Under the pieces are notes generated by a model. The model was not told where the DNA came from. It made no database searches and worked only from the letters and a program-made list of their open reading frames with translations. Positions 23,543-29,453 of a stretch of DNA of 55,877 nt are shown in pieces (the first letter of the stretch is position 1; every line of letters begins with the position of its first letter). The stretch comes from Actinomycetota bacterium (GTDB lineage Bacteria; Actinomycetota; Aquicultoria; Subteraquimicrobiales; UBA9087). The stretch is from positions 1-55,877 of the forward strand of contig JASEEZ010000011.1 in NCBI GenBank assembly GCA_030019215.1, read 5' to 3'. The position numbers were made by a program, and so were the translations under genes.

Positions 23543-24604
23543 ATGAAAGCTTTAATTCTAGCTGGCGGGAAGGGCACTCGATTGAGACCAATCACCCATA
23601 CCAGCGCCAAACAACTCATACCCGTGGCCAATAAGCCCATTTTATTTTATGCCGTAGAGGCGATAAAGGACGCCGGCATCACCGACATTGGCATCATCGT
23701 TGGGGATACCAGGGAAGAGATTGAAGCGGCTCTGGGCGATGGGAGCGAGTGGGGAGTAAAAATAACCTACGTGGAGCAGGAGGAGCCTCTGGGGTTGGCT
23801 CATGCTGTCAAGGTCGCTCGCCCGTATCTCGGCAAAGAGCCCTTCGTGATGTTCCTGGGGGACAACCTGGTGAAAGAGGGGATAACCCCTCTGGTGAAGG
23901 GGTTTGCCGAGGAAAAACCGAACGCTCAGATTTTGCTTGCTCGGGTGAAGGATCCCCAGCGTTTTGGTGTCGCGGAGCTTAAAGGTGGTAAAGTAGCCCA
24001 CCTGATTGAGAAGCCAAGGGAACCCCCCAGCGATCTGGCTCTGGTGGGCGTGTATATGTTTGACGAGCATATCTTTGAGGCGGTCGATAACATAAAACCA
24101 TCCTGGCGTAATGAGCTGGAGATAACCGATGCCATTCAGTACTTAATCGATCACGATTACGATGTTCATCCCCACATCATCGATGGCTGGTGGAAGGACA
24201 CCGGAAAGTTGGAGGATCTCTTGGAGGCCAACAGGATAGTCCTCCAGGATTTGGAGGGAGATTGCAAAGGATTCGTGGATAGCACTTCTCAGGTGATTGG
24301 TGATGTCGTCATTGAGGAGGGAGCGGAGATAATCAATAGCACTGTCAGAGGTCCTGCCGTCATCGGTCAGGATACAAAGATAATAAATTCCTTCATCGGT
24401 CCTTTCACCTCCGTCTATTTCGGCGTGATCATCACCGATAGCGAGATCGAACACAGCATCGTATTGGAGAATAGTATGATTTCTAACATTTCTAGGATAG
24501 AGGATAGTCTCATCGGGAAGAGCGTGGAGGTGTCCAAGTCTTCCTTGAAGCCCAAGGCGTATCGTTTGATGCTCGGCGATCACAGCAAGATTGGGGTATT
24601 GTAG
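23543..24604 (+). CDS. rmlA: Glucose-1-phosphate thymidylyltransferase, long form
   Basis: Nucleotidyltransferase making dTDP-glucose from dTTP and glucose-1-phosphate. The N-terminal signature LILAGGKGTRLRPITHTSAKQL is exact for the family, with FVMFLGDNL and the Lys of EKPREPPSD further on. 353 residues and C-terminal hexapeptide-type repeats (IINSTVRGPAVIG, IINSFIGPFTSV, IEHSIVLENSMI) identify the long left-handed-beta-helix form. AAAGGAGTGG precedes the ATG. First gene of the dTDP-L-rhamnose set rmlA-rmlC-rmlB-rmlD in this window. Confidence 0.93.
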   Translation: MKALILAGGKGTRLRPITHTSAKQLIPVANKPILFYAVEAIKDAGITDIGIIVGDTREEIEAALGDGSEWGVKITYVEQEEPLGLAHAVKVARPYLGKEPFVMFLGDNLVKEGITPLVKGFAEEKPNAQILLARVKDPQRFGVAELKGGKVAHLIEKPREPPSDLALVGVYMFDEHIFEAVDNIKPSWRNELEITDAIQYLIDHDYDVHPHIIDGWWKDTGKLEDLLEANRIVLQDLEGDCKGFVDSTSQVIGDVVIEEGAEIINSTVRGPAVIGQDTKIINSFIGPFTSVYFGVIITDSEIEHSIVLENSMISNISRIEDSLIGKSVEVSKSSLKPKAYRLMLGDHSKIGVL

Positions 24605-24854
24605 AAAGCAGTCAGGAGACAAAGGGCATGAGTCAGGGGCCAGGAACCAGGAACATCCGACATCGGTCATCTGCCATCCGGCGAGGAATTTCTCTAAGCT
24701 CCGAACTCCGTGCTCTAAGCTAATAAATCTGTCATCTGTGAACTGCCTGCCCGCCAATGGCGGGGCGGGTCAACTAATTTCGAATAACTAATAACGAATT
24801 CCTAATAACGAATAGCCACATCCGACTCCGACAAAATTGAAAGTGGGGATTGAT
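24605..24854. other. Intergenic region with short repeated words
   Basis: The gap contains GGCCAGGAACCAGGAAC, a CCCGCCAATGGCGGGGCGGG palindrome at about 24750, and direct repeats of CTAATAACGAAT at about 24788-24815. No gene is seen. GTGGGGA at 24843-24849 is the ribosome-binding site for the next gene. Confidence 0.5.
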
Positions 24855-25310
24855 ATGATCGAGGGTGTGAAAGTAAAAAAGTTGCGAGTCATCCCGGATG
24901 AACGGGGAAGATTGATGGAGATATTACGCTGTGACGACGATTTTTTCATGAAGTTCGGTCAAATCTACATGACCACTACTTATCCAGGGGTGGTGAAGGG
25001 CTGGCACTATCATAAGATTCAGACGGATAACATCGCTGTGGTCAAGGGGATGCTGAAGCTGGTTTTATACGATCCTAGGGATGGTTCTTCGACGAAGGGG
25101 GAGATAAATGAATTTTTCATTGGGGAACACAATCCCCTTCTCGTCCAGGTTCCCAAGGATGTCTATCATGGTTGGAAGTGCGTCAGCGAATCAGAAGCGA
25201 TAGTGATAAATTGCCCCACTGAGCCCTATAATTATGAAAATCCTGATGAGTATCGTCTGCCCTACGATGCGAAGGAGATACCTTACGACTGGGCTATCAA
25301 GATGGGCTAG
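24855..25310 (+). CDS. rmlC: dTDP-4-dehydrorhamnose 3,5-epimerase family protein
   Basis: Cupin-fold epimerase of 151 residues, in the position expected for RmlC. It has the substrate region VIPDERGRLMEIL, a modified active-site stretch VVKGWHYHKIQTDN containing the expected His, the strand KGMLKLVLYDPRDGS, and VPKDVYHGWKC. Canonical RmlC proteins have RGLHYQ and are about 180 residues, so this is a divergent, short class; a related sugar epimerase role is possible. ATG 24855 preferred over TTG 24837. Its stop codon TAG is the first three bases of an inverted-repeat element (25308-25384). Confidence 0.8.
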   Translation: MIEGVKVKKLRVIPDERGRLMEILRCDDDFFMKFGQIYMTTTYPGVVKGWHYHKIQTDNIAVVKGMLKLVLYDPRDGSSTKGEINEFFIGEHNPLLVQVPKDVYHGWKCVSESEAIVINCPTEPYNYENPDEYRLPYDAKEIPYDWAIKMG

Positions 25311-25384: not shown

Positions 25385-25438
25385 GGGCGGGATCTGCAAC
25401 AGTCTGTCTTCTCACTGCTGTTTTTAACGGGGTTGAAT

Positions 25439-27514
25439 ATGAAAAAGATATTGGTGACCGGGGGAGCCGGTTTCATAGGCAGCAACTTCGTTCGATATAT
25501 GCTCGAGCAACATCCGGATTACAGAATCATCAATCTGGATAAACTGACTTATGCCGGCAATCCGGACAATTTGAGGGATATCGGGGGCAATCCCCGCTAC
25601 GAGTTCATAAAAGGGGACATATGCGATGGGACCCTCGTGGGGAAGGTGATGAAGGGCGTTGATGCGGTGCTGAACTTCGCCGCCGAAAGTCACGTCGATC
25701 GCTCAATTCTCAATGCTTCTGAGTTTATTCAAACTAATGTTTACGGAACCTATGTTTTATTAGAGGCAGCAAAGAAATATAGCCTTGATAGATTTATTCA
25801 GATTAGTTGTTATGATGAGAAAACAAGAGCATTAACAACAGAGGGACTGAAGACATATAAAGAATTGAAGGAAGGAGATTTTGTTTTTTCATTAAATCCT
25901 ATAACACAAGAAATAGAAATTAAGCCTATTGAAAAAATTATAGTTCAGCCCCATAAGGGGGATATGATCCATTTTAATAATAAGCGAATTGATTTACTTG
26001 TGACTCCAAATCATAATATGTTTATTCTCAGTACAAATAAAAAGAAATTGCTCGTTGAAACAGCTGAAAAAGTTTCAAAAAGAAGTATTTTTTATATGCC
26101 AGATGGCTATTGGAAAGGTAAAAAAGAAGAATATATCGATGTAAAAGGTTATGGGAAAGTTAAAACAACAGATTTAATGTATATTTTAGGTATTTTCATC
26201 GGCGATGGATTTATAGATTATCAAGAAAAAACAGTTGAGACAAAAACAGGTTTAGCAAGAGAGGAATATTTAAAGAAGTCAAGAGATATTGCCAGCGGTA
26301 GATTTAAGAGAATAGAGAAGCAAGGTAACCATAAGTCTGTATGTCGTAGCTATAGAGTATTTTTGGATATTCCAGAAAATGATAAATGTCGCAAAAAAGT
26401 AGAAAAAACTTTACATAATTTAGGCATAAAATACCATTTCCATGAAGGAAAAGCAGGCACGCATTTGTATTTTACTTCGAAGGCATTTATGGAATTATTC
26501 GCTCAATGCGGCCAAGGGGCATATAATAAGCGAATTCCGCGATGGGCATTAGATTATTCTCCAGAGTATCTAAGCTATTTATTGGAAGGATTAATGGACT
26601 CAGATGGCCATAATGGCAAAATATATCATACCGTTTCAAAAAGATTACTCTCGGATATTTGTGAACTTTGTATAAAATTAAATCTTAAACCGAGCATACA
26701 CAAAAGACATACTATATCTTTTATGAATGGCAGAAAGATAGAAGGAAAAGGATGGTATGTTTTTGTTGCTAATACTACCAAATCAATTAGCCGCCACAGA
26801 AATAAAATAATTAATTATGATGGCGATATTTGGTGTTTGAAAATCAAAGATAATAAAAATTTTTTAGTTGAGAGAAATGGTAAATTCGATTTTTGTGGAA
26901 ATACTGATGAAGTATATGGGAGTATAGAAAATGGTTCATTCACCGAAGAGTCACCTTTGCGCCCTAATAGTCCTTACGCTGCCAGTAAAGCCGCAGCCGA
27001 CCACTTAGTTCGCTCATATTTCGTAACTTATAAATTACCAGTATTAATTACTCGCAGTAGCAACAATTTCGGTCCCTATCAATATCCTGAGAAGTTGATT
27101 CCTCTCTTTGTCACGAACGCTCTCGAGGGCAAATCCCTTCCCCTGTATGGAGATGGAATGAACGTTCGCGATTGGTTGTATGTTTTGGACAACTGTGAGG
27201 CCATCGATTTTGTTTTACATAAGGGGAAGGAAGGAGAAATATATAATATCGGGGGCGACAATGAGTTGCCCAATATCGAGATCACTAGGGAAATTCTTAG
27301 GATTTTGGGCAAGCCCAGCAGTTTAATTCAGTTTGTCCAGGACAGACCAGGTCACGATTGGAGGTACTCCATTAACTCTGATAAAATAAAAAAGTTAGGC
27401 TGGAGACCACGCCACGCTTTCAAGGAGGCTCTCGAGCAGACCATCAGGTGGTATCAAGGGAACGAGTGGTGGTGGCGAAAGCTGACCCTTCGACTACGCT
27501 CAGGGTCACCTTGA
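25439..27514 (+). CDS. rmlB: dTDP-glucose 4,6-dehydratase interrupted by an in-frame intein
   Basis: Short-chain dehydrogenase fold enzyme converting dTDP-glucose to dTDP-4-keto-6-deoxyglucose. The N-extein has the NAD motif ILVTGGAGFIGSNFV and FAAESHVDRSI; the C-extein begins with the catalytic TDEVYGS and has YAASKAAADH. Between Ser and Thr of IQIS/TDEVYG lies a 365-residue intein (25808-26902). Splicing would give about 326 residues, the usual length. ATG 25439 is used; the in-frame TTG at 25433 is unlikely. The last residues (LRLRSGSP) come from a CCCTTCGAC-type repeat. AT-rich codons extend from the intein into both exteins. Confidence 0.95.
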   Translation: MKKILVTGGAGFIGSNFVRYMLEQHPDYRIINLDKLTYAGNPDNLRDIGGNPRYEFIKGDICDGTLVGKVMKGVDAVLNFAAESHVDRSILNASEFIQTNVYGTYVLLEAAKKYSLDRFIQISCYDEKTRALTTEGLKTYKELKEGDFVFSLNPITQEIEIKPIEKIIVQPHKGDMIHFNNKRIDLLVTPNHNMFILSTNKKKLLVETAEKVSKRSIFYMPDGYWKGKKEEYIDVKGYGKVKTTDLMYILGIFIGDGFIDYQEKTVETKTGLAREEYLKKSRDIASGRFKRIEKQGNHKSVCRSYRVFLDIPENDKCRKKVEKTLHNLGIKYHFHEGKAGTHLYFTSKAFMELFAQCGQGAYNKRIPRWALDYSPEYLSYLLEGLMDSDGHNGKIYHTVSKRLLSDICELCIKLNLKPSIHKRHTISFMNGRKIEGKGWYVFVANTTKSISRHRNKIINYDGDIWCLKIKDNKNFLVERNGKFDFCGNTDEVYGSIENGSFTEESPLRPNSPYAASKAAADHLVRSYFVTYKLPVLITRSSNNFGPYQYPEKLIPLFVTNALEGKSLPLYGDGMNVRDWLYVLDNCEAIDFVLHKGKEGEIYNIGGDNELPNIEITREILRILGKPSSLIQFVQDRPGHDWRYSINSDKIKKLGWRPRHAFKEALEQTIRWYQGNEWWWRKLTLRLRSGSP
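25808..26902 (+). mobile_element. Intein with LAGLIDADG homing endonuclease inside RmlB
   Basis: In-frame insert of 365 residues starting at Cys1 (block A: CYDEKTRALTTEGLKTYKEL) and ending FCGN before Thr+1. Block B is DLLVTPNHNMFI, with the TxxH motif at residues 66-69. Two dodecapeptide motifs, LGIFIGDGF (127-135) and LLEGLMDSDG (258-267), mark a LAGLIDADG endonuclease. Block F is DIWCLKIKDNKNFLV. The penultimate residue is Gly, not the usual His. Base composition is much more AT-rich than the host genes, a sign of lateral arrival. Class 1 (Cys1) splicing with a Thr acceptor is inferred. Confidence 0.93.
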
Positions 27515-27530
27515 GCTTGCCGAAAGGTGA
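27484..27530. repeat. CCCTTCGACTACGCTCAGGGT repeat at the rmlB 3' end
   Basis: ACCCTTCGACTACGCTCAGGGT is followed by CACCTTGAGCTTGCCGAAAGGTG, two inverted-repeat words of the same family as at 23484 and 36780. The RmlB stop lies inside it, so the native C-terminus (after EWWWRK) has been altered. Confidence 0.75.
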
Positions 27531-28606: not shown

Positions 28607-28622
28607 GTTGGGGAGCACATCG

Positions 28623-29453
28623 GTGAAGATTTTGATAACGGGGAGCGAGGGACAGCTTGGCAGGGACCTGGTTCGGGTGCTTTCCGATGAGCATGAACTC
28701 TTTCCCTTTGACTTGGACATGGACGTGACCGTTCTCGATGGGACGATGAAGACCGTGACTACCATCTCGCCGGATGTGGTCATTCACGCCGCTGCCTATA
28801 CCGATGTGGATGGTTGTGAACTCAACCCTGATTTGGCCTACAAGGTCAATGCCCTCGGTACGCAGAACGTCGCGCTGACCTGTCAGAGGTGTGGGGCCGC
28901 CATGCTCTATGTGAGCACGGATTTCGTCTTTGATGGCAAGAAGGGAGAACCCTACCTGGAGTTCGATGAACCGAATCCCATCAGCGTCTACGGGCGGTCC
29001 AAGCTCGCCGGTGAGAGGTACGTTACATCTCTTTTGGACAGGTACTACATTACCCGAACAGCCTGGCTTTTTGGAAAGCATGGCAGGAATTTTGTCAAAA
29101 CCATTCTCAAGCTGGCAGAGGAGAGAGAGGAGTTGACCGTCGTTGATGATCAGATGGGTTCGCCCACCTACAGCCTGGATTTGGCAAAAACCATCGCCGA
29201 GCTCGTAAAAACCGGCTGGTATGGTCTCTACCACACCACCAACAGCGGAAGTTGTTCCTGGTTTGAGTTTGCCAAGAAAATACTGGAGTGCGCCGGCAAG
29301 AGGGGGGTTAAGGTGTCCCCGATAACCTCTGAGGAGTTGAACCGACCTGCTCCCCGACCCACCTATTCAGTTTTGAAGAATTACTGCCTGGAGCTTCGAG
29401 GCATTCAACCCCTACGCCATTATGAAGAGGCCTTGAGGGACTATTTCTCCTAA
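28623..29453 (+). CDS. rmlD: dTDP-4-dehydrorhamnose reductase
   Basis: NADPH-dependent short-chain reductase for the last step to dTDP-L-rhamnose. It has the N-terminal ILITGSEGQLGRDLV, the VIHAAAYTDVDGCE segment with the downstream YVSTDFVFDGKKGEPY strand, and the catalytic YGRSKLAGE (Tyr, Lys). 276 residues from GTG 28623 is normal; GGGGAG 8 bases upstream decides this start over the upstream in-frame TTG 28608. It completes the rml pathway. A CCCCGCCATCGGCGGG palindrome follows the stop. Confidence 0.93.
   Translation: MKILITGSEGQLGRDLVRVLSDEHELFPFDLDMDVTVLDGTMKTVTTISPDVVIHAAAYTDVDGCELNPDLAYKVNALGTQNVALTCQRCGAAMLYVSTDFVFDGKKGEPYLEFDEPNPISVYGRSKLAGERYVTSLLDRYYITRTAWLFGKHGRNFVKTILKLAEEREELTVVDDQMGSPTYSLDLAKTIAELVKTGWYGLYHTTNSGSCSWFEFAKKILECAGKRGVKVSPITSEELNRPAPRPTYSVLKNYCLELRGIQPLRHYEEALRDYFS

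Follow-up and report, generated by a model that had tools for sequence, protein, structure and literature searches.

An intein with a LAGLIDADG endonuclease domain at the catalytic Thr-Asp-Glu of the dTDP-glucose 4,6-dehydratase RmlB, with relatives at the same position in bacteria, archaea and viruses

The window, i.e., the whole stretch of 55,877 nucleotides analysed here (contig JASEEZ010000011.1 from the genome of an uncultured Actinomycetota bacterium), contains an rml cluster on the + strand comprising a LytR-CpsA-Psr gene (22252), rmlA, an rmlC-like gene, rmlB, a conserved hypothetical gene (27557) and rmlD (Table 1). The rmlB gene is one open frame (25433-27514, +) encoding 693 aa. The RmlC-like protein scores far under the RmlC equivalog cut-off, so the end sugar of the pathway may differ from ordinary L-rhamnose. 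At the 3' end of rmlB (window 27485-27530), the usual RmlB C-terminal tail of the order-mates is replaced; the last codons (LTLRLRSGSP) run into a short dispersed palindrome-like repeat (CTACGCTCAGGGTCACCTTGAGC), which is also found on contigs C15 and C48.

Table 1. Features of the rml cluster and of the intein in rmlB (window positions).
Feature	Position	Strand	Evidence and remarks
rmlA	23543..24604	+	TIGR01208, 498 bits
rmlC-like sugar epimerase/cupin	24837..25310	+	PF00908, 54.4 bits; TIGR01221, 41.7 vs. cut-off 155.75
RmlB N-extein	25433..25807	+	TIGR01181 model positions 1-127; NAD-binding GGAGFIG ... RFIQIS
Alternative start ATG of rmlB	25439	+	
AT-rich tract over intein and host flanks (host codons about 88-184)	25700..27090	+	GC3, GC profile
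Intein, 365 aa, Cys1 to Asn365 (FCGN)	25808..26902	+	Intein_splicing, LAGLIDADG_3, same-site relatives, AlphaFold2 and PDB fold match
Hint domain, N-terminal part	25808..26152 (boundary approximate)	+	Cys1; block B TPNH at residues 66-69; alignment and model
LAGLIDADG homing endonuclease domain	26153..26767 (boundaries approximate)	+	D133, D266; Pfam, alignment, model, Foldseek, dN/dS
Hint domain, C-terminal part	26768..26902	+	Block F WCLKIKDNKNFLV, block G FDFCGN; alignment and model
RmlB C-extein	26903..27514	+	TIGR01181 positions 124-321; begins with catalytic Thr-Asp-Glu; Thr is the +1 splice residue; alignable to solved RmlB structures
rmlD	28608..29453	+	TIGR01214, 351 bits

The identity of the host, proposed in the original prediction as RmlB, is confirmed by the TIGR01181 profile: the two exteins combined reach 469.8 bits (cut-off 365.1), with an interruption of the match near model position 124-127. 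Alignment with solved RmlBs places the motifs GGxGFIG, TDE and YxxxK in the host. Catalysis by RmlB depends on Thr-Asp-Glu plus Tyr-x3-Lys. Once the intein is removed, the sequence reads IQIS-TDEVYGS and can be aligned to the solved structures with no gap at the junction, so that the predicted placement at the catalytic Thr-Asp-Glu also stands; the predicted spliced RmlB has 326-328 aa. The Thr+1, acceptor of the transesterification, is also the catalytic Thr of RmlB, and the unspliced precursor should therefore be inactive. An intact rmlB elsewhere, which had been named as evidence against the prediction, was looked for in the genome (1.63 Mb, 94% complete), and no second gene above the TIGR01181 cut-off was found (runners-up 154-157 bits).

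The insert consists of 365 stop-free codons in frame (CYDEKTRALTTEG...NFLVERNGKFDFCGN), flanked by ...RFIQIS and TDEVYGS; its coordinates, length, Cys start and FCGN end before Thr had been predicted exactly. The Pfam profile Intein_splicing matches insert residues 9-354 (E=8e-8) at 32.7 bits, slightly under the curated 35.8, and LAGLIDADG_3 is above its cut-off (26.1 vs. 22.5). With Intein_splicing, the related inserts of this site mostly reach 38-76 bits, and one (L083) has 25.3. The features of class 1 inteins are present: the Cys1 nucleophile, block B TxxH (T66-P67-N68-H69) and Asn365 followed by Thr. Residues C1, T66, P67, N68, H69, D133 and N365 are invariant across 10 aligned relatives. 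A class 3 (WCT) intein, considered because of a Trp-Cys in block F, is ruled out by the presence and invariance of Cys1. The LAGLIDADG motifs are ILGIFIGDG (D133) and LEGLMDSDG (D266), both with their catalytic acids, and the fold matches I-DmoI. The AlphaFold2 model of the intein, built from ten aligned sequences, has a pLDDT of 90.5 and the class 1 Hint fold, its top PDB matches in Foldseek being PI-PfuI (E=4.3e-14), TliVMA, PI-PkoII, PhoVMA and PI-SceI. In a viral structure library the top matches are phage and giant-virus inteins. A sequence search of the PDB gives only a weak match to PI-PkoII. The predicted intein with a LAGLIDADG endonuclease is thus upheld by both profile and fold.

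The class 1 inteins PI-PfuI (1dq3), PI-PkoII (2cw7; E=5.7e-13) and PI-SceI (1vde; E=1.5e-11) likewise combine a Hint domain with an inserted two-motif LAGLIDADG domain, Cys1, TxxH and a terminal Asn. The window intein is only 10-13% identical to them, is shorter, ends in FCGN with a penultimate Gly and resides in a sugar-nucleotide enzyme, whereas the hosts of that type are replication or ATPase proteins. The best viral-structure matches (TM-score about 0.7-0.77) are phage-type inteins of terminase, RNR, polymerase and phosphoesterase hosts, which differ from it in host protein and share about 20% identity. Among viral relatives, the short size of about 350 aa and the xGN ending are common, as in the window intein.

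A penultimate His is usual in class 1 inteins, although not defining, and a block F His is present in many inteins. In the window-type family (type A, below), the penultimate residue is Gly throughout and block F has Lys in place of His family-wide, so that neither feature probably signals decay; predicted splicing may nevertheless be slow. Compared with close relatives, dN/dS is well below 1 in both intein domains (synonymous sites are near saturation), and the endonuclease of this copy is therefore probably still functional. In the intein of NPL-UPA2 (L077), the second catalytic Asp is lost (MDSN).

The residue before TDEVYG in RmlB is normally Ser; Asn in its place therefore suggests an intein. 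A collection of 84,980 genomes was scanned with a degenerate junction pattern (penultimate residue-Asn-TDEVYG), limited to TDEVYG and to penultimate codons [CG][AG]N. The search for RmlB inserts at the same position, recommended with the original prediction, yielded 36 stretches; 18 of these, from bacteria and archaea, are additional RmlB genes interrupted by an intein at the identical bond. The other half of the matches lie outside RmlB (e.g., L049, L053, L066) and were not counted. The ten intein-bearing RmlB ORFs that were scanned all pass the RmlB cut-off even with the intein present. Chance or misassembly is ruled out, since the insert is precise and in frame, carries the splice residues and has an exact junction common to independent genomes.

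Nine of the 18 inteins belong to the window type (type A; 356-376 aa, Cys1...[CS]GN). Their carriers are Staskawiczbacteria, two other Patescibacteria, two Omnitrophota, NPL-UPA2, Planctomycetota and the archaea Diapherotrites and Thermoplasmata. The other nine form a second type (type B; 505-518 aa, Ser1...LLHN), carried by Contendobacter, another Pseudomonadota, Anaerolineae, Ardenticatenales, two Thermococcaceae, Methanothermococcus, Pyrodictiaceae and Desulfurococcales. Type B, e.g., in G002 and Thermococcaceae, shares with the window intein the RmlB bond and the Hint and LAGLIDADG domains, but differs in Ser1, a penultimate His, a length of about 510 aa and an HTH-like region; the two types can be aligned in the endonuclease part only (22% identity). 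Two of the 36 genomes of the window's class match the junction pattern, the window with type A and its order-mate G002 with type B, and most class members have an intein-free rmlB. RmlB is unusual as an intein host, as predicted, but the case is not a one-off: the same bond is interrupted in at least 18 further cellular RmlB genes and in several of viral origin.

The window intein shares 72-73% identity with the inteins of a Patescibacterium (L062), NPL-UPA2 (L077) and an Omnitrophota member (L071), and 70% with that of another Omnitrophota member (L060), while the RmlB hosts of these inteins are only 53-60% identical to the window RmlB. Host and intein trees disagree. In the host tree, the window RmlB stands nearest its order and class relatives, apart from the intein-sharing phyla; a tree constrained to group the six intein-sharing hosts is worse by 36 log units (AU p=0.047, borderline). 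Host codons 88-184 have a GC3 of 0.28 vs. 0.60 elsewhere, and none of 400 synonymous shuffles is as extreme. This AT-rich tract is read as a putative co-conversion tract, such as flank co-conversion in homing would leave; a segment-identity search for the donor of the flanking DNA gave no clear winner. The incongruence of intein and host together with the tract are probable signatures of horizontal homing.

The same region has also recombined in one genus (G002, G003, G004), since its rmlB genes are 93-100% identical over the first 60 codons and only 62-98% identical in 15-codon stretches between -45 and +75 of the site. The intein-free alleles of G003 and G004 read TDECYGS (TGT for GTN). At the variable position of TDE-x-YG, V occurs in 33 of the 40 RmlBs examined; C, T or I stands there in three relatives from the class. 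Intein-free rmlB genes of order-mates and of one family of the class (L010, L015, L013, L014, L021) read TDECYGS, TDETYGS or TDEIYGS. Such altered target codons may reflect target-site (homing) resistance or drift.

A profile of type A detects hundreds of relatives in viral contigs; with the window intein as a single query the same contigs gave no match, and the profile was needed. The closest viral relatives reside in RmlB or RmlB-like enzymes (L133, L134, L137, L139, L143), in GDP-mannose 4,6-dehydratase (GMD; L142, L145) and in other SDR enzymes (L136, L144), directly before the motif homologous to TDEVYG. In Omnitrophota, type A inteins are also found in GDP-mannose dehydratase (L224) and in another SDR (L223). 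L134 and L143 lie in what look like viral surroundings (a TubZ/FtsZ-like tubulin with a UvsW helicase; rmlD-rmlB-rmlA next to a helicase). One viral SDR enzyme (L136:3-3053) apparently has two inteins, one before SSEVYG and the second after RFFN. Five viral RmlB-like matches (L094, L095, L096, L098, L110) are intein-free SDR enzymes with Asn in place of Ser directly before TDEVYG, and they were not counted as carriers.

In a tree of 34 inteins, those of the SDR site group together (99/97), enclosing a C-methyltransferase intein and the NadE intein of G002. The latter (L112, G002:C8:82468-83574) is 35% identical to the window intein over its full length and has the same FCGN|T junction, yet its host (NAD synthase) is not an SDR. 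Viral and cellular inteins interleave: viral L133 clusters with the intein of Staskawiczbacteria (90/94), viral L137 with that of Planctomycetota (99/96), and the viral GMD intein with the one in Omnitrophota GMD (100/99). A further pair consists of a Patescibacterium and an archaeon (100/100).

The insert is very probably a mobile, self-splicing class 1-type intein with LAGLIDADG homing, which belongs to a clade of SDR active sites and arrived horizontally, plausibly by phage. It would be translated within the RmlB precursor and excised by the Hint domain through an N-S shift at Cys1, transesterification to Thr+1, cyclisation of Asn365 and a final acyl shift, whereby IQIS and TDEVYGS would be joined and the catalytic Thr-Asp-Glu restored. 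The LAGLIDADG domain could cut intein-free rmlB alleles at the codons of the near-invariant TDEVYGS motif, and repair would copy the intein with some flanking DNA. The clade to which it belongs occupies the corresponding active-site position in extended-SDR nucleotide-sugar enzymes, and its hosts include phages as well as bacteria and archaea. Phages, proposed as intein vectors (PMC5050341), are plausible vectors here too.

Alternatively, the intein could be a post-translational switch, through which redox state, temperature or metals control splicing and hence RmlB activity and rhamnose-containing glycans. The catalytic site is blocked in an apparently sole rmlB, Cys1 is redox-sensitive in principle, and conditional splicing is described for other inteins, e.g., of mycobacterial DnaB (PMC6195587, PMC8557812). 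A switch is nevertheless improbable: the distribution is sporadic and horizontal, most class members do without the intein, and a mobile element at a conserved target accounts for the data without regulation. It is similarly improbable that the usefulness of gated splicing, as a post-translational brake on surface-glycan supply, has kept two unrelated inteins (one of them also in other extended-SDR nucleotide-sugar enzymes) at the RmlB catalytic bond in phages, bacteria and archaea, and that the bond is more than a good homing target. The evidence shows what appears to be a mobile element moved by homing instead of splicing-conditioned control of rhamnose supply.

Decay of splicing or of the endonuclease, leaving an unspliced inactive RmlB, could be read from the penultimate Gly, the missing block F His and the sub-threshold Intein_splicing score. 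It is very unlikely, as these features are common to the family, neither the catalytic residues nor the two LAGLIDADG Asp are lost, dN/dS is well below 1, the extein motifs are kept and the genome has no other RmlB. Vertical inheritance from a common ancestor of the carriers, with loss elsewhere and without homing, would account for the sharing of one bond by homologous inteins from distant phyla of bacteria and archaea. This reading is hardly tenable, because the inteins are more alike than their hosts, the host and intein trees conflict, two unrelated inteins occur within one order, viral copies are interleaved and the AT-rich tract surrounds the insert. A horizontally acquired homing intein remains the preferred explanation.

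Inteins are known to favour conserved catalytic sites (PMC2814812), and papers on prasinoviruses describe inteins in PolB and a dehydratase without one. In the limited literature searched, RmlB, GMD and related SDRs were nowhere described as intein hosts, although a mention in a supplementary table is possible; the kind of intein is itself already known. With these data, the extended-SDR sugar-nucleotide dehydratases/epimerases are added, as a metabolic enzyme family, to the recurrent intein sites: in several paralogous enzymes, across domains and viruses, members of one intein clade interrupt the equivalent catalytic bond, and two unrelated inteins converge on one RmlB bond. These sites offer a natural setting in which to test how homing endonucleases select conserved active-site codons, and whether phages that carry glycan-synthesis gene clusters serve as intein vectors. 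Within the class, rmlB alleles with the window-type intein, with the other intein and with none occur side by side, and the target codons are altered in some of those without an intein; homing resistance is therefore directly testable.

Other inteins were noticed in the same genome as the window. One (L047, G000:C49:17756-18037) lies at the A-cluster cysteines of an acetyl-CoA synthase / CO dehydrogenase beta-type protein (junctions MTS | CFVGDTEV ... VKN | CGCFECI), a host for which no case was found in the literature searched. Two more (L043, L044; G000:C50:15359-16573 and G000:C3:24362-25798) are situated in an adenosylcobalamin-type ribonucleotide reductase and in the P-loop of a V/A-type ATPase A subunit, both familiar intein hosts.
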